Positions 6,621-23,421 are shown, counted from the first letter of the stretch. The stretch is DNA of 28,760 nt from a virus (IMGVR_UViG_3300025652_000370:1-28760), one strand, 5' to 3'. The notes: a model not told the origin generated them from the sequence alone. Translations and numbers: made by a program.

Positions 6621-9600
6621 ATGAGCAGCTGGGTTGTCAATGGTGTCACGTATGACTTCCCTGATGATTACAGTGAAGCTGCTGTCATGGGCATCCTACG
6701 TGCTCAGGGCATCCTGCCTGCTGCTCAGCCACCACCAGAACTGCCACGGCTGCCTGCTGCACCGTTGACACCGTTTCAGCCCCCTGGCGCCATCAGTGCA
6801 GGCATCAGAGAAGCTGCCAGAGCAGAAGCAGAAGCAGAAGCTGCTGCAGCGGTGCTGCCTGCTGGCACTGACATTGGGGCGCGTATCGAGCGCACCACTG
6901 CTGACCTGGTGGCAGAAGCAGAGAAGCCCAGGCAGGCAGGCCTGCAGGCTGGCAGGCTTGATGAGCCCATGCCGGTTGAGACTGGCGGCATACCCCTGTT
7001 CAGGCGCTCAGCTATTCAGACAGTGCCTGCCTTTGTGGAGCGGCAGCCCACACCGCTGAGCGTTGCACCCTTCATCAGTGAAGAAGCCCAGCGCCTGACC
7101 AGAGAAGAACAACAGCGCGCTGCTGCTTCTTTTGACTTCCCAACCCCCCTGTCAGCATCCGTGGTGGGTGAAGTGCCCAGGCGCGCCATCAGGGATGCTG
7201 ACACTGACCAGCTGCGCACACCCACCACGGCTGAAGAAGTGCGTGAATCGTTCGCGCAGCAGCCGGTGATGACTGAAGAACAGGCAAGACGCGCAGAACG
7301 GGAGCTGGCAACGCAACAGCGTGAAATAGACAAGCGCATTGAAGCTGGTGAGGATGTTGGGTTCTTTGAGCGCAACCCTGGCAGCTTCCTGGGTGAAGTG
7401 CTTACCCAGCCTGACAAGGGTGCTGGCATTGTTGAAACCCCACTGGGGGCAGGGCTGCGCAGTGCCCTGGGCTATGTCAGCGCGCTGGCTGGTGAAGGCT
7501 ATTTCAGGGGCCTGGGGTATGAAGTCGATGCAGACGGGGTGCCCATTGACCCTGATGACATTGGCTTCAAGATCGCGCAGCTCAGGGAAGCCGCTGGTAT
7601 TCCAGAGGTATACGCCCCAGCCACTGGGGCCGGATATTCCACCATCCCCCTGCCAGGGTTTGCCACGCGCAGAGAACAGGTTGTGCCCACACGATTTGAC
7701 CCCACTGGCAGCAGACGGGTTGACCCTGATGCTGACAGCTTTGCCCTGCGCATTGCGCAAGCTGTTGCCAAGGGGCGCACCCTGGGGGATGACTATGCCA
7801 GTGCGCCTGCTGTGCGTGACTACTATGAAGCCGTATTCAATGACCCTGATGCAGCCTATTATGCAGGCCTGATACCTGAGATTTTCACCCCTGCAGGCCC
7901 TGGCACCGCTGCCAGAGCAGGCAAGGCAGCTGCAGGCGCAGTCATCAGCCGGATTGATGCGCAGCCCTTCCTTGAAGCCGTGGCAGCAGCAGAAGCAGCA
8001 AGTCGCGCAGCCACCACTGCTGCTGACTTCAGCACCCCAGCTGGCAAGGTTGCCATTGAAGCAGGGCAGCAAGCGCAGAGAAGCGCAAGCCTGCTGGCAT
8101 CACCAGTGGTGGGCAAAGTGGCTGACTTTGTGGCTGCAGTCAAACCCGGCAAGGCTTCTGATGGCAGGCTGGTGCGCAGGGTAGCTGAGCGCGTGCTTGA
8201 CCGCTCAGGCCTGGGCAGTGACCTGGCAGCAGCAAAAACAGCCATCAAGCCCAGCAGCAACACCATTGCAGAAGTCATGACTGATATACGTGGTGCGCTG
8301 CCAGCCCAGGCAGCACCACTGACTGCACGGATAGAACGTCAGATCCTGCGCAACGTGCCTGATGACTTCACCCTGGTGACTGACACGCTGGCAGTGCCCA
8401 GGGGCTTTGCCCAGCAGGCAAGGCAGCGATTGACAGAACTGCGCACTGATGTCTTCTTCAAGACAGCAGAAGACATGGCTGCAGAACTTGACACGCTGGC
8501 AGATGGTGCGCGTGGTGATGTGGCTGATGCCCTGCGCTCTGCAGCGCGTCAAGTGGTGGAAGTGGCGCAGGCTGCTGATGGTCGCCCGGTCTATGGTTTC
8601 AAGGGGTTGCCAGCGCGCACCAGAACCGTAGTAAAGTCAGCCCTGGGCAGGCTAAATCTTACCCCCACTGCTGTTGCACGCTTTGAGAAGCGCACCCCTG
8701 CTGACTTTGTAAGGGCTGAAGCCACGGCACTGAGCAGGGAAGCTGCTGACCGGCTGCGCAATGCTGATGACTGGGTTGATGTGGCGCCTGCTGATGTCAG
8801 GGCTGCTGTCAATCTGAGACAGACCAGAGGCCTGCAGCGTGCGCTTCCTGGGCAGCTGCGCAACACCAGAGACTTGACGGCTGCCCAGCTGCGCTTCAGA
8901 AGTGCTGACGCTGGGCTGATGGCTGCACTGCAGAGCAGCAAGACCCTGAGCAGTCCTACATTCAGACGGCTGCGCGCAGCCCTGAGCCGTGGCACCCTGA
9001 CAGAGACTGCAAGCGGTGCCATGGCAGCCCAGCGCATCAGGCAGGCCAGTCAGGAAGCACTGCGCACCCTGAGCAGGCAGCTATATCAGCTGGCGCGTCA
9101 GTATGGCTCTGTTGATGAGGCCATGACTGTGATGCTGAAGCAGCAACTGCTGGCTGCTGGTGTCAGGGCTGATGTGGCTTGGAAGCGCGTGCTGGGCAAC
9201 CTGTATGGTGAAGCCCAGGCAGAAGAAGTGCTAAGCCTAATGCAGCGCTATGACATCCCTGCTGATGGTTACCCCAGTGTGGATGCCATCAAGGCGCTTG
9301 ACCTGGCGCTTACCAAGCGTGGTGACTTGCCAGGGCTTGCCACCACTCTGCCAGGGTTTGCACCGGACTATCACCGGGCATTCTTGAAAACAGTGATGGA
9401 AGAAGGCATCAGGCGAACCCTGATAGCTGACCGGCGCATAGCAGAAGCAGCCGGTGCTGGTGTTGATGTGGCTGAAGAACTGGGGCTGGCAACGCCACTG
9501 CCTGCAGGCTTCAAACTTGCCCAGGAACAGATTGACGCGCTGAAGCGCACTGCAGCCGTTGACCCTGCTGCTGCCAAGGTTGACACTGAAGCGGTGCCCC

Positions 9601-12988: not shown

Positions 12989-13147
12989 ATGGCAAAAGCA
13001 GACATTCCAGTATCACGCATCATCCGACTGCTTGCCAAGGTGCTGCGCTTCAGAAAGGACGGCCTATCACCAGATGAGCGTCAGGTACTGCTGATTGATC
13101 TGCTGACGCTGGTGGGGGATATTGCAGATGATGCTGCTGACCGCTGA
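12989..13147 (+). CDS. Small hypothetical protein, 52 aa
   Basis: A short gene supported by a good ribosome binding site (AGAGGT, 12978-12983) and by filling the gap between two genes. The product starts MAKADIPVSRIIRLLAKVLR and has a basic amphipathic helix followed by an acidic, Leu-rich C-terminal helix (ERQVLLIDLLTLVGDIADDA). No transmembrane segment is seen. It overlaps the following gene by 20 nt in another frame. Function unknown; position suggests a lysis or virion accessory role. Confidence 0.62.
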   Translation: MAKADIPVSRIIRLLAKVLRFRKDGLSPDERQVLLIDLLTLVGDIADDAADR

Positions 13148-13736
13148 CCGTGTGCTGCGCAGCATCAAGGCTGCTGGCGGTGCCACTTTTGAAGATGACA
13201 CCCCGTATAACTTGAACGTGTTCGGTGTGCGCAGCTCTGACAGCACACCAAACACGTTCAATGACCTGGTGGGCATCGTATACCGCTGTGATGCAGGTCA
13301 CTGGCACTGCGAGACATGGCAAGCCACCACTGACCCTGGCACCTATTGGCTCGAAAACCCTGGCAACGTCAATGGCACTGCCATCTTAGTGCCTGGGCAA
13401 TACCGTGGTGTCTATGCAGTGGACTACCACAATGGGCAGTATCTTGCGCTCTGTCAGCGCAATGGCCCTGTGAAGGTGTGGCGCGACAATGACAAAGACG
13501 GTGCCCTTGATGAAGGGGGCACCGTCTATACTGATGCAGCTGGTATCAACATCCACCACGCCAGCAGCAGTGGCACCAGCACCCAGGTAGACAAGTTTTC
13601 CGCAGGGTGCCAGGTCATTGCTGACATCAGTGACTGGCTGCGCTTCATGTGGATTGTGAACCAGCAGCAGGCCTACCATCCCACGTGGAAGGCTTACACT
13701 TACACGCTGCTCACTCAAGAACAGCTGGTGAGATGA
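13128..13736 (+). CDS. Putative cell-wall-active lysis enzyme, 202 aa
   Basis: ATG 13128 has GGGGG at 13114-13118; TTG 13122 and ATG 13131 are alternative starts. Conserved-looking features are NLNVFGVRS (28-36), GHWHCETWQATTDPGTYW (57-74), an EF-hand-like calcium loop (D120, D122, D124, G125, D128) and GINIHHAS...FSAGCQV (139-163). The last resembles the H...S-x-G-C active-site region of YkuD L,D-transpeptidases. I associate this protein type with phage lysis regions, where it is usually left unnamed. It is the last gene of the rightward unit, after a membrane protein, the usual place for an endolysin. Endolysin-like function is inferred; no lysozyme, amidase or known peptidase motif is present. 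Confidence 0.55.
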   Translation: MMLLTADRVLRSIKAAGGATFEDDTPYNLNVFGVRSSDSTPNTFNDLVGIVYRCDAGHWHCETWQATTDPGTYWLENPGNVNGTAILVPGQYRGVYAVDYHNGQYLALCQRNGPVKVWRDNDKDGALDEGGTVYTDAAGINIHHASSSGTSTQVDKFSAGCQVIADISDWLRFMWIVNQQQAYHPTWKAYTYTLLTQEQLVR

Positions 13737-15803: not shown

Positions 15804-15983
15804 TCAACACAAGGCGCCAATGAGATGCGCCAAGTCATCAGCAAGGTCATTGATGTCATCAATACCCATGCTTGGATGCAGCTCACTAAGTTCATCAGCC
15901 AGCGTGTCAATGATGTCAATAATCGGGCTGTCAATGGTCAGACCGTTCCGTTTAAGGACTGCGAGTGCTTGTTTGCGGTTCAT
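15804..15983 (-). CDS. Small acidic protein, 59 aa
   Basis: I chose ATG 15983 (MNRKQALAVLKRNGL) because a GGGAGA site lies just upstream. The open frame continues up to 16043, but that would translate the palindrome at 16007-16020. The first 15 residues are basic and the rest is very acidic and helical (IIDIIDTLADELSEL, then GIDDINDLADDLAHL), with two similar Asp-Leu-rich helices. Function unknown; a DNA-mimic or protein-binding factor is possible from charge alone. It heads the second part of the leftward operon, with its own putative operator. Confidence 0.65.
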   Translation of the reverse strand: MNRKQALAVLKRNGLTIDSPIIDIIDTLADELSELHPSMGIDDINDLADDLAHLIGALC

Positions 15984-16006
15984 GTTGTCTCCCTGTTTGT
16001 CTTGCC

Positions 16007-16020
16007 CCCTATATATAGGG
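16007..16020. promoter_or_regulatory. Perfect 14-bp palindrome CCCTATATATAGGG (putative operator)
   Basis: An exact palindrome in the 69-bp gap between the primase-helicase stop and ATG 15983, about 24 bp upstream of that start. The same sequence occurs at 19254-19267 and close variants at 19334-19344, 19410-19423 and 19427-19436. All copies I found are intergenic. Confidence 0.7.
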
Positions 16021-16052
16021 CAGCAGATCACAAAAGACAACATTTTAAACCA

Positions 16053-18980
16053 TCAAGCCGTTGCTTTGTGGGGTTCCTCATTCAACCAGCGCTGCATCAT
16101 TGACCATGAAAGCCGCGTCTGCGCATCCATGGTGGCGTCATCAAGGTAATACAGTCGCTGCCTGCCTGGGCCTGCAGGCCTGATGCTGAGCAGCTTGACG
16201 CCACCAAAGCGCAGCAGCTGCTGCAGCTGGGCAAACGGCTTGCCCCTGGCGTCAGACCTGCGCTTGATGCCGCCTACCTTCATCCAGGGTGCTGCAATGT
16301 GCAGCAGCTTGACTGCCTGGGCTCTGGAGATGTGGCGCCTGCCATCCTTGACTGGTAGCTGCACCAGCGCCTGCATCAGCACTGCAAGGCACCTGGCACG
16401 CGGTATGGCTGGTGCAGCAGTCATGAAGGTCTTGCGCTTGCTGGCTTTGACTTCTGCAGCTGCCAGCTTGTCTTCTTCCCCTGCTGCAATGCAGAGCGCA
16501 GCAGCAAACACCCTGGTGCGTGCAGCCCACTGCTGACGCTTTGTCCGGTGTGCGATGTCTGCACGGTCAGCAGTGCTGCTGGTGGTGTACCCAGCTCCAT
16601 AGATGCCCTCGAATACTGCAGCCTTCCACTGGTGGTATTCCTCGTCAGTCTCTGCCCCCTGAGCTTCTACGCGCTCAACATCAGCAGGCGCCAGTGCAGG
16701 CGCATCAGCAATGGCCAGGGCTTCTGCTGCATCCCTGTCAGCCAGTGCGCTTGCCACTTCCCTGCTGAAGTCGAGATTGCCAGCACCAGCAATGTCAGTG
16801 ACATGGTGGCCGATAGCAAGCCACGGCACCACCCAGCGCAGCCCATGCTGATAGGCAGAAGCCAGCACTGTTGCCTGCATCCATCCCAGGCGCTGACTAT
16901 CTGGTGACATCATCCAGTCACTTGCCAGCGTCAGGCCCTTCTTGATGTTGGTTAGGGCATAGTCACCAGCTGCCAGCCGGGCTTCTGCTTCTTTGACCTG
17001 CCCCTGGACATCAGCGCGCCAGTCAGTCACTGGGTCAGCCAGATAGCCACTGATGGTGATGACCTTGTGCCGTGGCTTGCGTATCCGGTGCGCAGCTTGT
17101 TCAACATGCAGCGCAGTGGTGACCATCCCCCTGCCCAGCAGCACATGCACCCTGTCATAATGGTCTGGCAGGTCATAGCTGACGCCAGTGGCCATGGCGT
17201 TGTTGTACACCAGCACATCAGCAGTCAGCGCCTGCTGCGATAGGTCAGCCCTTGTTTCATGGCTTTTGCTGCCCACCACTGCCACCACGTTGCGACCAGC
17301 CCAGCGCCTGCGCACCACATCAGCAAAGCCCAGGGCAGCTTCTCTGCCTGGGATGTATATCGCCAGCTTCTCACCATCAGCCAGCTGCTGAAGTATCAGC
17401 CCTTTGTGCTCAGCATCAGAGCTGCTGACTGTGACCTGCTTGCCCTTCTTTGTGGTGCGCGTCAGAGCAGGCACATATTCAAGCTGGTGACAGTGGGGCG
17501 CAGTCTTCCAGGCTTCCCAGGCGCCAGGAAGCACGCCAGAGCGCAGCCGATAGGCCGCCACATCTTGCAGCAGCTTCACCGTGCATGGCCCTGCATGGGC
17601 ATCAGCCAGCATGACCCTGCCAGCATGCGCAATGCAGTAGATAAGCAGGTTGTATGTTTCACGCGCTGCATCACCAGAGAGCATGCCAAGCAACTGCTGC
17701 AGGCATGTTTCAATCTCATCAACCATCACATAGGTGTTGCTCAGCTGCATGGGCATCAGCCCTGCTGCCTTCTTCCTGATGCTGGCAAAGCACGTGGCGA
17801 TACTCTGGCGCCTTAGATGCAGTCCGCTGTTGCTGTCAGCATGCGCCAGGTCAAGACGGTCAGCCAGCTGCTGAGCCAGTGCAATGGTGGGGCTGATTGC
17901 CAGCACCCTGCGCTGCATCAGCCCTGGTGCGTGCCACTGCTTGACCAGCTGCTGCATCAGCCACGTCTTGCCAGCGCCAGTGCGGGCACGATTCACCAGC
18001 CGTGGTGGCGCCGTTGGCCACTGCGCATGCCCCCTGGCGTCAAGCTGCAGCACCGTTGCATCAGGGAAGCTGTCAAGGCGCTCAGGTGCCATGGTGAAGC
18101 GCGTGCAGCAACTGAAGCAGCTGTACTGCTCATCAGTCAGGCGCTTGTAACCGCTGCCCTGACACAGTGGGCAGGCTGCACGCGCACCCACTGCCAGCAC
18201 CGGATAGCTGCGCAGCCATTGACGGTACTGCCAGCGCTTCTGCTGCTGGGGCTGTCTTGCCTTCCTGGGCAAGCTGGGGCTGCGCCTTCTTGCCTGTTTG
18301 GGCAAGTCTGCAGGGTAGGCAGCTTCCAGCGCTTCAAAGAAGCTGAGCATGCGCGCATCATCAATGTGGTCATGCTGGTGCAGCAGCCTGACTGGCTTGC
18401 CCGTGTCACGGTGCCCCCACCCAGGCAGGGGGAAGATGCGCGTGCCCACATCCTTTGCACTGTCATCCCACCACCAAGGGGCGCCTGCGCTCAGCAGCCA
18501 GCGCTTCAGCACTGCCTTCATCCGGTCTGGTGACCAGTCGCCACCCACCCAGCCCAGCGAATCAGGTAGCCAATAGATGAGGCAGAACCCCTGCCCAGTC
18601 ATCACCACGCGGTTTGGCTGGTCTGGTAGGCCTGCTGCTGCAGCTTCTTTGACCACCACGCGCAGCAGGTCAGTGTCAGCCAGCCACTTGCCCAGCTCCA
18701 CTTCACTGGCAGCGCGCATGCCTGCCTTGCGTTGCTTCTTTGTGGCGCCCCAGCGCTGGGCAGCCCCTGCCCAGTCATAGGGGTCAACATCAATGGTGAG
18801 GGCAGCAGCTTTGCCCAGGTCAGCCATGGTCATGCGCTTGCTGTCTTGCTTGAAGAAGCCTGCGCAGGTCATGGGCACCCAGCCCTTTTTACCTTTCAGG
18901 TGCCTTGCCTTGACGGTCAGACCGGCTGGTATTGACGGCAACAATGATGCCGCGATAGAATCAACGTGAGAAGGATGCAT
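16053..18980 (-). CDS. Primase-helicase fusion: AEP-like primase, zinc finger and SF2-type helicase, 975 aa
   Basis: GGAG lies 5' of ATG 18980. The N-terminal region has primase-polymerase (AEP) marks: LTIDVDPYDW with Asp64 and Asp66, TGQGFCLIYWL (128-138), and GTRIFPLPGWGHRDTGKPV (179-197), the usual 'R.LPG..n.K.g.PV' region. A zinc-binding cluster follows (CPLC at 270-273, CFSCC at 288-292). The helicase part has Walker A ARTGAGKTWL (332-341), Walker B VMVDEIE (418-424), a VLVYNNAMATGVSYD motif (589-603) and motif VI VEQAAHRIRKPR (626-637). This resembles herpes-UL9-type or plasmid initiator helicases. The C-terminus may hold a winged helix. With no phage polymerase present, it likely opens the origin and primes for the host replisome. 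Confidence 0.82.
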   Translation of the reverse strand: MHPSHVDSIAASLLPSIPAGLTVKARHLKGKKGWVPMTCAGFFKQDSKRMTMADLGKAAALTIDVDPYDWAGAAQRWGATKKQRKAGMRAASEVELGKWLADTDLLRVVVKEAAAAGLPDQPNRVVMTGQGFCLIYWLPDSLGWVGGDWSPDRMKAVLKRWLLSAGAPWWWDDSAKDVGTRIFPLPGWGHRDTGKPVRLLHQHDHIDDARMLSFFEALEAAYPADLPKQARRRSPSLPRKARQPQQQKRWQYRQWLRSYPVLAVGARAACPLCQGSGYKRLTDEQYSCFSCCTRFTMAPERLDSFPDATVLQLDARGHAQWPTAPPRLVNRARTGAGKTWLMQQLVKQWHAPGLMQRRVLAISPTIALAQQLADRLDLAHADSNSGLHLRRQSIATCFASIRKKAAGLMPMQLSNTYVMVDEIETCLQQLLGMLSGDAARETYNLLIYCIAHAGRVMLADAHAGPCTVKLLQDVAAYRLRSGVLPGAWEAWKTAPHCHQLEYVPALTRTTKKGKQVTVSSSDAEHKGLILQQLADGEKLAIYIPGREAALGFADVVRRRWAGRNVVAVVGSKSHETRADLSQQALTADVLVYNNAMATGVSYDLPDHYDRVHVLLGRGMVTTALHVEQAAHRIRKPRHKVITISGYLADPVTDWRADVQGQVKEAEARLAAGDYALTNIKKGLTLASDWMMSPDSQRLGWMQATVLASAYQHGLRWVVPWLAIGHHVTDIAGAGNLDFSREVASALADRDAAEALAIADAPALAPADVERVEAQGAETDEEYHQWKAAVFEGIYGAGYTTSSTADRADIAHRTKRQQWAARTRVFAAALCIAAGEEDKLAAAEVKASKRKTFMTAAPAIPRARCLAVLMQALVQLPVKDGRRHISRAQAVKLLHIAAPWMKVGGIKRRSDARGKPFAQLQQLLRFGGVKLLSIRPAGPGRQRLYYLDDATMDAQTRLSWSMMQRWLNEEPHKATA

Positions 18981-19028
18981 TGCGGTGCTCCGGCAGGGCA
19001 GTGGGCTGCAACCCGTTGCCCTGCTTTA

Positions 19029-19232
19029 TTATGAGGGTGTCTTGACCAGCAGCTGCTGCTTCAGTCGCCGTGGTGGCTTCTGCAGCTGCTGCTGAATGAA
19101 CAGTATCAGCCAGCGCCTGACAACCTGGTCACTGAAGTCAGCAATGCTGAGCCCAGTCAAGAAGGCAGCGAACCGCACCAGACGGTGCGTGTCTTCTCTG
19201 ACGAGCAGGGCTTTCCAGTGCGCAGGGGGCAT
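19029..19232 (-). CDS. Ribbon-helix-helix (Arc/CopG-type) regulator, 67 aa
   Basis: Residues 7-45 fit a ribbon-helix-helix fold: a beta strand (KALLVRE), helix A (DTHRLVRFAAFLTG), a Gly-x-Ser turn (G27, S29) and helix B (IADFSDQVVRRWL). A basic, Gln-rich tail follows (PPRRLKQQ). Such proteins bind palindromic operators as dimers of dimers. It is the first gene of the leftward operon. A perfect 14-bp palindrome lies 22 bp before its start, so autoregulation is the natural reading. The ribosome binding site is weak (GAAG). The fold call is by pattern only. Confidence 0.65.
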   Translation of the reverse strand: MPPAHWKALLVREDTHRLVRFAAFLTGLSIADFSDQVVRRWLILFIQQQLQKPPRRLKQQLLVKTPS

Positions 19233-19253
19233 GGCTTCAGCATAGCATGGCGC

Positions 19254-19267
19254 CCCTATATATAGGG
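19254..19267. promoter_or_regulatory. Perfect palindrome CCCTATATATAGGG, site A
   Basis: Identical to the palindrome at 16007-16020. Its centre is at 19260.5, about 28 bp upstream of the RHH gene start. Likely operator for the leftward operon, probably bound by the RHH protein. Confidence 0.72.
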
Positions 19268-19333
19268 TTGCTTATTAACAAACAGCATCATTGTGCAGGT
19301 TCGTCAATGCTTTTGCGCGGTCCAATAGAGGCA

Positions 19334-19344
19334 CTATATATAAG
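19334..19344. promoter_or_regulatory. Degenerate palindrome CTATATATAAG, site B
   Basis: A variant of the 14-bp palindrome keeping the TATATATA core, with imperfect outer bases. Its centre (19338.5) is 78 bp from site A and 78 bp from site C. Confidence 0.5.
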
Positions 19345-19409
19345 ATAGGTGTATGGTATGGACTGCCCTTTTAGCTTGGTTCAATGCCCTATATCCTTCA
19401 TAGGTGGCG

Positions 19410-19423
19410 CCCTATATATAGGA
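19410..19423. promoter_or_regulatory. Near-perfect palindrome CCCTATATATAGGA, site C
   Basis: 13 of 14 bases match the palindrome. The centre is 19416.5, about 40 bp upstream of the zinc-ribbon start. It lies next to site D, so a cooperative pair is possible. Confidence 0.65.
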
Positions 19424-19426
19424 GCG

Positions 19427-19436
19427 CTATATATAG
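19427..19436. promoter_or_regulatory. Core palindrome CTATATATAG, site D
   Basis: A 10-bp core palindrome centred 15 bp from site C and about 24 bp upstream of ATG 19456, the first gene of the rightward operon. It could be an operator or overlap a -10 element. Confidence 0.6.
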
Positions 19437-19455
19437 AATATGGAGGTTAACCGCC

Positions 19456-19692
19456 ATGCAATGCCCAGTTTGCAAGAGCAAAAGCATAGTCAGAGAGACG
19501 CGCACCCCGGTGAAGTTCCAGCACACCTTCTTGCTGCGGCTTGAAGCTGACTGGCCTGAGCTGGTGTGTAGAACACGCAAGTGCAAAACCTGCAGCAATC
19601 AATGGCCTACCGTTGAACTGCCAGTCGATGACCTGCAGCTGATGCTTGCAGATGTGGCGAGGCAGGCAACACAGCTGATGCGTGCAATCTGA
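19456..19692 (+). CDS. Zinc-ribbon protein (NrdR/Ogr-like), 78 aa; possible late-gene regulator
   Basis: GGAGG at 19442-19446 precedes ATG 19456. An in-frame ATG at 19384 is unlikely, since translation would run through the palindromes. The product has CPVC (Cys3, Cys6) and CRTRKCKTCSNQWPTVE (Cys38, Cys43, Cys46). The second half resembles the zinc ribbon of NrdR (RRRxCxxCxxRFTTxE) and, more loosely, Ogr/Delta late-transcription activators of P2-like phages. It is the first gene of the rightward operon and overlaps the small terminase start by one base. A role in switching on late genes is inferred from this position. Confidence 0.65.
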   Translation: MQCPVCKSKSIVRETRTPVKFQHTFLLRLEADWPELVCRTRKCKTCSNQWPTVELPVDDLQLMLADVARQATQLMRAI

Positions 19693-20141
19693 TGTACGCC
19701 CCCAGAGATGAGCGCACCAAGTTTGAAAAGCTGACGCGCAAGCAACAGCACCTGGTCAAGTGGCTGGCTGAACACCCTGATGCCGTTGTCAGTGATGCCG
19801 TGGCAGCTGGCGTTTGCAGCTTCAGCACCGCTGACCGAATCAAGCGCAAGCACTTGGCAGCCTGGGTGGGCGCCTATCGTGCCACGCTGCCAAAGACAGC
19901 AGCCCAGCTGGCTGAACAAGCCACTGAGCATCTGAACGGCTTGCTGATGCCTGCAGTCAGGGTGCTGGCTGACACTCTGGTATCAGGCGAGGGCAACGCC
20001 ACTGCAGTGAAGACAGCGCAGTATATCCTTGACGGCATCAGAGCCCAGGCAGCAGCAGCACCTGCGCCAAAGTATCGCAACGGCTTTGAGCCAGTGGAAG
20101 AAGCAGAGCTGGCAGCGGTGCTGCAGCTGGTGGGTGAGTGA
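19692..20141 (+). CDS. terS: Terminase small subunit (putative), 149 aa
   Basis: TGATG overlap with the previous gene, and a four-base overlap with the large terminase start. The N-terminal part (LTRKQQHLVKWLAEHP, then DAVAAGVCSFSTADRIKRK) looks like a helix-turn-helix DNA-recognition domain. The Ala-rich middle (AAQLAEQATEHLNGLLMPAVRVLADTL) looks like an oligomerisation helix pair. Size and adjacency to terL fit the packaging small subunit, which recognises the phage genome and regulates the motor. The sequence itself is too divergent to name a subfamily. Confidence 0.72.
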   Translation: MYAPRDERTKFEKLTRKQQHLVKWLAEHPDAVVSDAVAAGVCSFSTADRIKRKHLAAWVGAYRATLPKTAAQLAEQATEHLNGLLMPAVRVLADTLVSGEGNATAVKTAQYILDGIRAQAAAAPAPKYRNGFEPVEEAELAAVLQLVGE

Positions 20142-21685
20142 CGTTCATCCCTGGCAGGGTGCCACGTGCTCTGGCAGGGAAGGTCAGCAGGTTGCTGTCA
20201 GACCTGCCCAGCTTTGCCCAGCTTCACACCGTGCAAGATAAAGACAGCAAGAAGCCTGTGCGATTCAAGCCCCTGCCCATGCAGCGCAAAATCTTTGAGG
20301 CAGTGCAGGCAGGTCACAAGCGCATCATCATTGTCAAAGCGCGTCAGGTAGCTGCCACCACTGGCTGCAAGATGGTGCTGCACCACATGGCGTACACCAC
20401 CAGCTATGCTGCCATGCATGCAGTAGTGAGCATGCGAGATGACAGCGCCACTGCTCTGATGGATGATCCCAGGCGCTGGCTGGATGATCCGCCCACCCTT
20501 TTGAGGCGCCCCATTCAGACAAAAGCAAGGGGGCGCATAGTATATGACGACACTGGTGCCAGCCTGCAGGCCTTTACTAGTCGATCAAAGACCGGCTTGC
20601 GCAGCTTCACACCTGCTGCAGTCCTGGTGTCAGAAGCTGCATATGCTCCAGACCTGGAAGAAGTCATAGCCCAGGCTGATGCTGCAGTTGGTGATGGCTT
20701 GCTGCTGGTAGAGAGCACAGCCAACAACCCTGCAGACTTCTTCAGCCAGCTGGTCAAGGGCGCCCCAGAGAACGGCTGGCACCTGCTCACGATGTGGTGG
20801 CACGAACACCCGGCCTATTCCAGTGACCTGGTGCCTGATGACTTTCAGCCCACCAGCGCAGAAGACCAGATAGCTGACCGCTATGCCCTGAGCAGGCAGC
20901 AGCTGCACTGGCACCGGACCACCAGCAGACGGCTGGGAAGTGATCACAAGTTTAGGCGGGAATACCCTTCCTGCCTGGATGACTGCTTCCTGATGAGGGA
21001 GGGCGGCTATTACGGTGATGAAGTGCTGGCTGATATTCATGTGGTTGAACACATCAGCACCACTGATGGCAGGGAGATTGAACCGCCCCACCCACATGAC
21101 CGCTATGTCATGGGGGTTGATGTTGGTGGTGGTGTTGGTGGCGATTACAGCGCGCTGGCAGTGGTGTCAGTGTCCACCATGCAGCCGGTCTATACAGAGC
21201 GGTGCAACACCACCACCCCTGGCAAGTGGGCGCACCGCGTCATTCAAGTGGCCAGCAGATACAACCAAGCGCTGGTGCTGGCAGAGAGCAACAACCATGG
21301 GCATGCGCTGATGCTTGAGCTGGGAAACTGCGGATACCATCAGCAGTGGCGCAGTGCAGCTGGCAGGCCATGGGTCACCACGCTGCAGAGCAAGCTTGAT
21401 GCGTTTGACACGCTCAGGGAAGCCCTGAGCATCGTAAAGATCATGGACCGCGCCACATGGCTTGAACTGCGCTCACTCACCATCCCTGCAGGCAAAGTGG
21501 CACCAGAGGCACCCAGGGGCTGCCATGATGATGCAGCAATCGCAATGGCGCTGGCTTATCGCTGCATGCGCGATGTGCCTTCATCCTGGCGGACACATGC
21601 GTTAGTATCCGGGAAGACTCGTATTGATGACTTGATCAGTGCCAGCAGGGCAAAGCGTATCAGGTCTTCCCGGCTTCCCTTCTAA
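20138..21685 (+). CDS. terL: Terminase large subunit, 515 aa
   Basis: The start is GTG 20138, overlapping the terS stop (GTGA). The ATPase domain shows a Q-type motif LPMQRKI (46-52), a Walker-A-like KARQVAATTG (67-76), a Walker-B-like VLVSEAAYA (162-170) and coupling motif LLLVESTAN (188-196). The nuclease domain has VMGVDVGGGVGGDYSAL with Asp328 and Asp336, VLAESNNHG with Glu383, and CHDDAAIAMALAY with Asp464/Asp465. It pumps DNA into the prohead and cuts it. The non-classical Walker A and Ser in place of Asp in Walker B occur in other large terminases. Full length, apparently intact. Confidence 0.92.
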   Translation: MTFIPGRVPRALAGKVSRLLSDLPSFAQLHTVQDKDSKKPVRFKPLPMQRKIFEAVQAGHKRIIIVKARQVAATTGCKMVLHHMAYTTSYAAMHAVVSMRDDSATALMDDPRRWLDDPPTLLRRPIQTKARGRIVYDDTGASLQAFTSRSKTGLRSFTPAAVLVSEAAYAPDLEEVIAQADAAVGDGLLLVESTANNPADFFSQLVKGAPENGWHLLTMWWHEHPAYSSDLVPDDFQPTSAEDQIADRYALSRQQLHWHRTTSRRLGSDHKFRREYPSCLDDCFLMREGGYYGDEVLADIHVVEHISTTDGREIEPPHPHDRYVMGVDVGGGVGGDYSALAVVSVSTMQPVYTERCNTTTPGKWAHRVIQVASRYNQALVLAESNNHGHALMLELGNCGYHQQWRSAAGRPWVTTLQSKLDAFDTLREALSIVKIMDRATWLELRSLTIPAGKVAPEAPRGCHDDAAIAMALAYRCMRDVPSSWRTHALVSGKTRIDDLISASRAKRIRSSRLPF

Positions 21686-21693
21686 GGCTGACC

Positions 21694-23421
21694 ATGCTGA
21701 CACCAGAGCAAGTGGCTGACTTCTACCATCAGCACCGTCAATACTGGGATACCAGACGCGATGAGATGCGTGAGCTGCGCAATCTCTACATGACACGATT
21801 CTGGCAAGATGAAACCTTCCCCACCCTTGACGGCATCTTGCGCACTGAAGTGCCCAAAGCATATGCCGTGGTTGAAAGCTACCTCGGCAGCTTGTATGCC
21901 AAGAATCCTGCTGTGTTTGTGCAGCCTGACCTGCGCGCCAGAGGCAACCCGCAAGTTGCAGAAGCCACGGCCAACCAGTATCTGCTGACCATCAGGGAAC
22001 AGCTTGAGGATGCAACCCGGCTGGCGCTCATCTATCCGTGCGGATTCGTCAAGCTGGCACCAGTGCAGAGCGTTGACCCACTGCAGCGCGTGTCATGCGC
22101 AGCCCTTCCCCCCTGGGAAGTCATCGTTGACGCCACTGCAGCCAGCTGGTCTGCGCAGCGCTACGTTGGGCACGTTCAGCTGATGCCCTTGCAGGAAGCT
22201 GCAGAGCGTTACGGCAAGCCTGAACAAGCATTCAGAAGCCGCGCATATAGCAAGTGGATTGAATCTACTGGGATTGCTGGGAAAGATCAGATGCTGGGGC
22301 TGGGTGCGCCCACCAGCGCGCCATCAGCATCCCAATGGGTGCAGGTTGTTGAGCTGTATGACCTGGTGCATGACAAGCTGCTGGTGTGGTCTGAAGATTA
22401 TGCTGATGGCACTGACTTCTTGTTCACTGGCATCACCGTGCAAGTGGGCGCACTGGATGCAGGCGCTGCTTCTGACACTGAAGCCCCTGATGCTGAGCTG
22501 GTGCATGAGACAACGGGCATCCCATTCAAGTCAGCCAATGGCAGGCCAGTGGTGCCCCTGCTACCCCTGTACTTCTCCCGTGACCCAGACACCCCGCTGC
22601 GCGGCTATTCGCTGGTGCAGCGCTCGCTTGACCAGTTCAGAGAGCTGAACGTAATGAGGACCTATCAGGCTCAGGGTGTGCGACGTATGGCGCGCCAATG
22701 GATGGTGCGCGCTGGCTTCCTGAGTGAAGACGGTGCTGCCAAGATTGCGCAGGGCCTGGATGGTGAGTTCATTGAAGTGGACCTGCCCCCAGGCACTGAC
22801 CTGACTGGCAACATCACCCCAGTGCCCCAGGCGCCCATACCTGCTGACATCAGCCTGTATGCGCAAACCGTTGACAATGACATCAATGCTGCAGGCCTGC
22901 TGGCACCCTTCACCCGTGGTGAAGTCACCAAGAGCACTGCCACTGAACAGCAGCTGCTTGCTGCCTACACCAGCAGTGAAGTGGGGCGCATGGCACGTGT
23001 CAGGGATGCTGTCATCACTGGCATTGCGCGCACTTACAATGTGATGCTGAGCGTTGTGCTGGGTGATGATGCAGAGCCACTGGCACTGCCCAACCCAGTA
23101 GGCCCCACCATCCTGAGCGCTGATGACCTTACTGGTGACTTCCAATACTGGGCAGTTGATGCAGGCACCACGCCCATGTCTGACATGGCGCGTCAGGCAG
23201 TGCTTGAGCGCATTGCACCGCTGCTGGTGCAGCTGGGCACCCCACCAGCAGAAGTGCTGGCTGAGCTGGTGCGTGCTTACCAGCTGCCTGAAAGCTTCCT
23301 GGCAGCACCACCACCACCAGAGAACACCCCACCACCATCAATGGCAGCCGGTCAGGCTGAAGCAGAAGCCCAGGCTGAAGCCGCTGTCATCGGAGCGCAA
23401 GACGATGCCACTTTACTCTGA
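21694..23421 (+). CDS. Portal protein, 575 aa
   Basis: It lies 8 nt after terL, the classic position. The N-terminus is helical and aromatic/charged (DFYHQHRQYWDTRRDEMREL), followed by a conserved-looking region (YPCGFVKLAP, then PPWEVIVDATAASWSAQRYV) typical of podovirus and lambda-like portals, where 'W..vivD..a' precedes the stem. A tail from about residue 520 is Pro/Ala/Gln-rich and probably disordered. It forms the dodecameric vertex through which DNA is packaged and ejected. The last 17 nt overlap the next gene. Confidence 0.87.
   Translation: MLTPEQVADFYHQHRQYWDTRRDEMRELRNLYMTRFWQDETFPTLDGILRTEVPKAYAVVESYLGSLYAKNPAVFVQPDLRARGNPQVAEATANQYLLTIREQLEDATRLALIYPCGFVKLAPVQSVDPLQRVSCAALPPWEVIVDATAASWSAQRYVGHVQLMPLQEAAERYGKPEQAFRSRAYSKWIESTGIAGKDQMLGLGAPTSAPSASQWVQVVELYDLVHDKLLVWSEDYADGTDFLFTGITVQVGALDAGAASDTEAPDAELVHETTGIPFKSANGRPVVPLLPLYFSRDPDTPLRGYSLVQRSLDQFRELNVMRTYQAQGVRRMARQWMVRAGFLSEDGAAKIAQGLDGEFIEVDLPPGTDLTGNITPVPQAPIPADISLYAQTVDNDINAAGLLAPFTRGEVTKSTATEQQLLAAYTSSEVGRMARVRDAVITGIARTYNVMLSVVLGDDAEPLALPNPVGPTILSADDLTGDFQYWAVDAGTTPMSDMARQAVLERIAPLLVQLGTPPAEVLAELVRAYQLPESFLAAPPPPENTPPPSMAAGQAEAEAQAEAAVIGAQDDATLL

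Follow-up and report, generated by a model that had tools for sequence, protein, structure and literature searches.

Palindromic sites at the starts of three transcription units, and their probable ribbon-helix-helix repressor, in an uncultured podovirus-like phage lineage

The virus record IMGVR_UViG_3300025652_000370 of IMG/VR is a linear stretch of 28,760 bases, which was analysed over its whole length and is called the window below. Our subject is a 14 base pair (bp) palindrome, CCCTATATATAGGG, which recurs in the window ahead of three blocks of genes, one of them opening with the gene of a 67 amino acid (aa) ribbon-helix-helix (RHH) protein. The palindrome is a probable operator, and the RHH protein is the candidate that would bind it.

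Five palindromic sites and the units they precede

Exact copies of CCCTATATATAGGG lie at 16007-16020 and 19254-19267. A scan allowing up to three mismatches returns exactly five sites, at 16007, 19254, 19332, 19410 and 19425, where 0.18 would be expected by chance; a count of five was reached in none of 100 shuffles. The core CTATATATAG, with at most one mismatch, finds the identical five sites over the whole window (0.07 expected), and every TATATATA and every TATATA of the window falls within them. The copy at 19410 (CCCTATATATAGGA) has one mismatch to CCCTATATATAGGG, that at 19425/19427 (CGCTATATATAGAA) matches the palindrome in its core only, and that at 19332/19334 (CACTATATATAAGA) is a weaker form.

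We refer to four of these copies as putative operator sites. Site A (16007-16020) lies over the -10 element of a predicted leftward promoter (TTGTCT-N17-TATATA on the minus strand) and 23 bp from the ATG, at 15983, of a 59-aa gene. O1 (19254-19267) lies 21 bp before the start codon of the RHH gene (ATG at 19232) and is the proposed site of autoregulation. O3 (19410-19423) and O4 (19425-19438), 15 bp apart from centre to centre, precede a zinc-ribbon gene (ATG at 19456) by 32 and 19 bp, respectively. None of the five copies falls within a likely gene, although longer mechanical open reading frames (15804-16043 on the minus strand and 19384-19692 on the plus strand) would take in palindrome copies. 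The shorter starts are preferred for the Shine-Dalgarno sequences that accompany them, and that at 15983 also because relatives have another gene below 16007 but still carry the palindrome. The initial annotation, made from the window by itself, had described two exact copies with variants near 19334, 19410 and 19427, all intergenic, unlikely by chance and standing some 20-30 bp before three start codons; save for the longer reading frames, the scan bears this out, with these five sites and no more. Many copies inside genes, which it had named as grounds for abandoning the idea, were looked for and did not refute it.

The first leftward block starts at 19232 with the RHH gene (19029-19232, minus strand), followed on the same strand by a gene for a 975-aa helicase-type replication protein (16053-18980); the two probably form one operon. 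The second leftward block runs from 15983, where the 59-aa gene (15804-15983, minus strand) comes first, to an HNH endonuclease gene. The rightward block starts at 19456 with the gene of the 78-aa zinc-ribbon protein (19456-19692, plus strand) and includes a probable small terminase subunit, assigned by position (19692-20141, plus strand), the large terminase subunit TerL (20138-21685, plus strand), portal, scaffold and major head protein. Judged from gene order, the rightward unit would continue through all structural genes, and the three units would span most of the window. As a separate observation, the replication protein combines an IDVDPYDW motif, a CPLC..CFSC cysteine motif and a helicase domain; the first of these, near the N-terminus, suggests a primase, possibly of primase-polymerase type.

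A nucleotide search with 16001-21700 gave no match among isolate phages, no relative of the replication protein was found among them, and TerL met only records below 60% identity, the best at 24-29%. At the sensitivity used, relatives of TerL and of the replication protein were also absent from 84,980 prokaryotic genomes, and no integrase was seen among the scanned window proteins, many of which had no match of any kind. On these two grounds we set aside a lysogeny repressor system. An antitoxin role for the RHH protein was rejected likewise, because a toxin gene is lacking beside its gene, whose neighbours are the 975-aa helicase gene and the divergent zinc-ribbon gene.

Conservation and replacement of the sites in related phages

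A TerL search yielded 46 loci. Those that cover the region and whose TerL is 91-95% identical to that of the window (clade A) have palindromes at the same places, so that the absence from relatives that the initial annotation had offered as a refutation was looked for and the sites were present instead. In most near relatives the palindrome reads ACCACTATATATAGTGGT, which implies that site A and O1 of the window have each exchanged A for C, on either side, at the outer arm position beside CTA; compared as CCTATATATAGG in the window and ACTATATATAGT in near relatives, the shift amounts to one position. The core CTATATATAG of O4 is identical in all clade-A relatives that cover it, O3 is degenerate in three loci (L011, L012 and L017), and locus L170 has two perfect 18-bp palindrome copies and one with two mismatches. 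Site A is kept at the same place in L169, L170 and L171, and the first gene after it differs in every relative: products of 59, 139, 70 and 98 aa in clade A and others again in clade B (below), unrelated to one another. The site-A units (window 15983 leftward; L169 7390; L170 8265; L171 6173) thus pair a conserved promoter and operator with a changing first gene, and site A is possibly a slot in which early accessory genes are swapped, counter-defence genes among the options.

A second, more distant clade, represented by L172 and L173 (clade B), has replication proteins 46% identical to that of the window and encodes, between helicase and zinc-ribbon gene, an RHH homologue with 37-40% identity, which is 77 aa long in L172. 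Ahead of the RHH gene, the zinc-ribbon gene and the site-A unit, these loci carry ATGTCTACCGGTAGACAT or near variants of it. At up to three mismatches, L172 has only three matches of this type in 17 kb, at the three units (0.00 expected); the copies in L173 are a weaker form, recognisable against the L172 motif. The palindromes of both clades share the frame CTA-NNNN-TAG, filled by TATA in clade A and by CCGG in clade B, and their outer arms differ. When the 100-bp upstream regions were compared, the window, L170 and L172 scored 27-32, against a null maximum of 24. A scan of viral contigs for TGTCTAYCGRTAGACA returned seven stretches, of which only L228, on the same contig as L172, held two copies.

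These comparisons bear on the simplest alternative, that the sites are chance occurrences or low-complexity AT stretches between genes. Intergenic DNA is indeed richer in AT, and exact CCCTATATATAGGG occurs in at least 119 unrelated viral stretches, about the chance level given our estimate of the collection size. Conservation in place and joint replacement in relatives, together with the shuffles reported above, already refute the idea, and we give it next to no credence. The loci with double copies of CCCTATATATAGGG (L068 and L097), and L207 for CCACTATATATAGTGG, were examined and dismissed as chance or unrelated occurrences, being unrelated genomes that lack the RHH-helicase neighbourhood.

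Further relatives present other arrangements. L030/L180 (4560-4930) has neither a palindrome nor a recognisable RHH gene in the interval from helicase to zinc-ribbon gene, which makes it a natural negative case. L049/L181 has a palindrome of its own, GTACCCTATGTAGGATAC (7854-7871), within the spacer of TTGACC-N17-TACACT ahead of the RHH gene, and no second copy of it was found in L049. In L181, a second RHH gene (12998-13168; MGRPKTDNPRTNRVQLLLTDDELASVKSASGNVPLARFLREAILQAIGAKRAESDK) opens the site-A unit and is preceded by an inverted repeat with arms of about 18 bp around TTGACG.

The relation of the sites to promoters was assessed by simple scoring with an E. coli-type matrix. At site A, six lineages show TTGNCN-N17-TATATA or TATATG overlapping the palindrome, with -35 elements TTGTCT (window), TTGACT (L169), TTGCCT (L170), TTGACA (L171) and TTGACG (L172 and L173). 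The palindrome there lies on the -10 element in clade A and in the spacer in clade B; at the zinc-ribbon gene of L172, the -35 element of TAGACA-N17-TATAAT lies inside the palindrome, and a consensus scan finds the same promoter. The initial annotation had proposed, beside a shared operator, a phage-specific promoter element, which a phage factor or a host sigma factor would read. In the window this has some appeal: start codons follow at a short fixed distance (19-23 bp) and TATATA resembles a -10 element. Clade B, however, moves the site relative to the -35 and -10 elements and replaces TATA by CCGG while keeping the palindromic frame and the units served, and the genes scanned include no polymerase or sigma gene. 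A site that shifts among -35, spacer and -10 while its units stay the same is operator-like and not part of the promoter core, so that we regard a promoter element as improbable.

The copy at 19332-19345 stands apart. It lies in the loop of a dyad whose arms are at about 19321-19329 and 19360-19368. Most relatives have such a dyad between the RHH and zinc-ribbon/terS genes, with arms of 10-14 bp and an AT- or CT-rich loop of 21-30 bp; the arm sequences vary among them (CGGTGGACAGGTGA and TCACCTGTCCACGG in L172), and those of the window are related but eroded. The element is found at about 19300-19385 in the window, at 3645-3898 in L172, 6280-6548 in L173 and 7830-8020 in L049, and also in L183, L182, L179 and L034; in L184 it is duplicated as a whole. 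Its loop contains the TATATATA of the 19334 copy in clade A but is free of palindrome copies in clade B. Since the loop goes without a palindrome in clade B and the window arms are eroded, the 19334 copy probably belongs to this separate conserved dyad, and its role as a shared operator, as first proposed, is doubtful. The dyad may be a replication origin or packaging site. Extended to the whole cluster at 19254-19438, with its AT-rich palindromes and the dyad, bound by the replication protein or by terminase, the same idea would draw on the position of the dyad in most relatives and on the adjoining replication and terminase genes. Site A, however, is isolated, 3.2 kb away and at a promoter, and relatives without palindromes still have the dyad, which is therefore a separate element that could explain the 19334 copy and leaves the operators unexplained. 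For the cluster as a whole, an origin or packaging site appears very improbable.

The ribbon-helix-helix protein as candidate binder

Membership of the 67-aa protein in the RHH fold is likely, though without a significant match. A profile built from 12 RHH-like neighbours listed, among PDB sequences, only Arc, omega and ParG, with weak expectation (E) values of 0.09-0.95. An AlphaFold model based on 12 relatives reached a predicted local distance difference test (pLDDT) score of 83.5, with residues 1-12 extended and helices at 13-26 and 30-51 (a run with 8 sequences was poorer, at 72). The monomer model assigns no strand, as would be expected where the sheet forms in a dimer. Foldseek matches to the model were nearly all RHH proteins at the top of the list, the best with an E value of 0.14.

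The predicted beta strand differs between clades, WKALLV in clade A and FTSLQV or FVSLQV in clade B, while the flanking pattern VRE.TxR..RFAA.L.G.S..D is retained. Arc contacts bases through Gln9, Asn11 and Arg13 of its beta strand (PMC12645479). In an ungapped alignment (query 8-40 to Arc 11-43), W6, A8 and L10 of the window protein fall on these positions, which are thus W/A/L in clade A and F/S/Q in clade B. The change of the operator core from TATA to CCGG goes with this change, which indicates that core and predicted contact residues changed together. We propose, tentatively, that the operators of all three units switched jointly from CTATATATAG to CTACCGGTAG, with the promoter layout kept, and that two or three beta-strand substitutions (A8S and L10Q, with K7T/V and W6F) were sufficient for the switch in specificity.

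A proposed regulon and its place among viral regulators

The palindrome is best read as the operator of an autoregulated 67-aa RHH repressor acting at the three unit starts, with a probability that we put at roughly 0.77. The evidence lies wholly at the level of sequence: the palindromes exist, relatives keep them in position, the second clade has exchanged them jointly, and the RHH beta strand has changed in parallel. From this we infer that the protein binds and represses, which promoters are used and how expression is timed. The shared operator suggested by the initial annotation is well supported in this form, as relatives have the sites at the same three unit starts. In the proposed mechanism, RHH dimers, probably as pairs of dimers, would insert a two-stranded beta ribbon into the major groove at each half-site and would cover core promoter elements read by a host RNA polymerase of sigma-70 type. 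The protein would repress its own RHH-helicase operon via O1 and the early accessory unit via site A, and would restrain the rightward zinc-ribbon-terminase-structural unit via O3 and O4. Repression of the three units could set the timing of early, replication and late expression in this phage of about 29 kb.

Several observations weigh against such a repressor. The RHH assignment is weak by sequence, and Pfam gives no match for the window protein. The two clades provide a single contrast, neither a statistical correlation nor a proof of cause, and within clade A the arm shift between CCTATATATAGG and ACTATATATAGT has no matching beta-strand change. Promoter scores in the window are modest (6.7 at site A, where the 95th percentile of random segments is 7.0); in clade A there is no good -35 element for the RHH (window) or zinc-ribbon promoters, and the consensus scan lists no window promoter at the sites. 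Taken one by one, the L173 copies do not rise above noise (score 21, null 95% 22), and the upstream-region comparison finds no palindrome common to the units in the still more distant relatives L179, L181 and L182, so that a regulon of shared sites is seen in clades A and B only.

The lack of a good -35 element for the zinc-ribbon promoter in clade A has another possible explanation: the RHH protein could be dual-acting, repressing the leftward early promoters and activating the rightward terminase/late promoter, with O4 in place of the missing -35. O4 is the most invariant copy, and AvtR, an RHH protein of an archaeal virus, both represses and activates (PMC5569661). The clade-B site, on the -35 element of the near-consensus TAGACA-N17-TATAAT, has the geometry of a repressor, however, and the O4 core occupies the would-be -10 position, which is ill-suited to an activator. 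We consider a dual regulator unlikely.

The proposed RHH repressor has partial counterparts. SvtR of the virus SIRV1 is an RHH repressor of its own gene and of a few viral promoters, including that of the late structural gene gp30 (PMC5569661); here too a small viral RHH protein would target its own gene and a late unit. SvtR acts, however, on archaeal TATA/BRE promoters through long imperfect inverted repeats, those of gp30 about 80 nucleotides upstream of the promoter, whereas the window phage has compact palindromes of 14-18 bp overlapping sigma-70-like promoters. The copG-repB operon of plasmid pMV158 is repressed by CopG (PMC6607859), an RHH protein whose small gene likewise stands directly ahead of a replication gene; CopG controls copy number through one operon in place of three dispersed units, and no sequence likeness to it is claimed. 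Arc of phage P22, also a phage RHH repressor, is the best PDB sequence match of the family profile (E 0.09). The similarity is weak, and Arc differs in its contact residues (Q/N/R, against W/A/L or F/S/Q here) and in its 21-bp operator with TAGA boxes.

In Cluster A mycobacteriophages, the repressor and a dispersed stoperator motif drift together between related phages (PMC6550527), so that the kind of phenomenon is already known: one repressor, dispersed sites and a motif that changes alongside the repressor. Those genomes have up to 30 sites, motifs alike across the clade, a non-RHH repressor and temperate immunity; the sites here are few, all at unit starts, and their motif is almost wholly exchanged. 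The completeness of this exchange with the layout preserved is the unusual part. As for site A, archaeal viruses also conserve one regulatory sequence ahead of non-homologous early genes (PMC11065993), in another domain of life and with another type of regulator; a counter-defence role for the site-A genes is only a candidate.

Through the comparison, what began as a bare motif becomes a testable regulon that would join the replication, early accessory and terminase/structural units of a lineage for which no cultured relative was found. The two clades offer natural repressor-operator pairs for the question of how the RHH beta strand specifies DNA, and they bear on how several dispersed operators may change in step with their repressor. 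The site-A promoter, standing ahead of ever-changing small genes, marks a place to seek early accessory genes, possibly of counter-defence.

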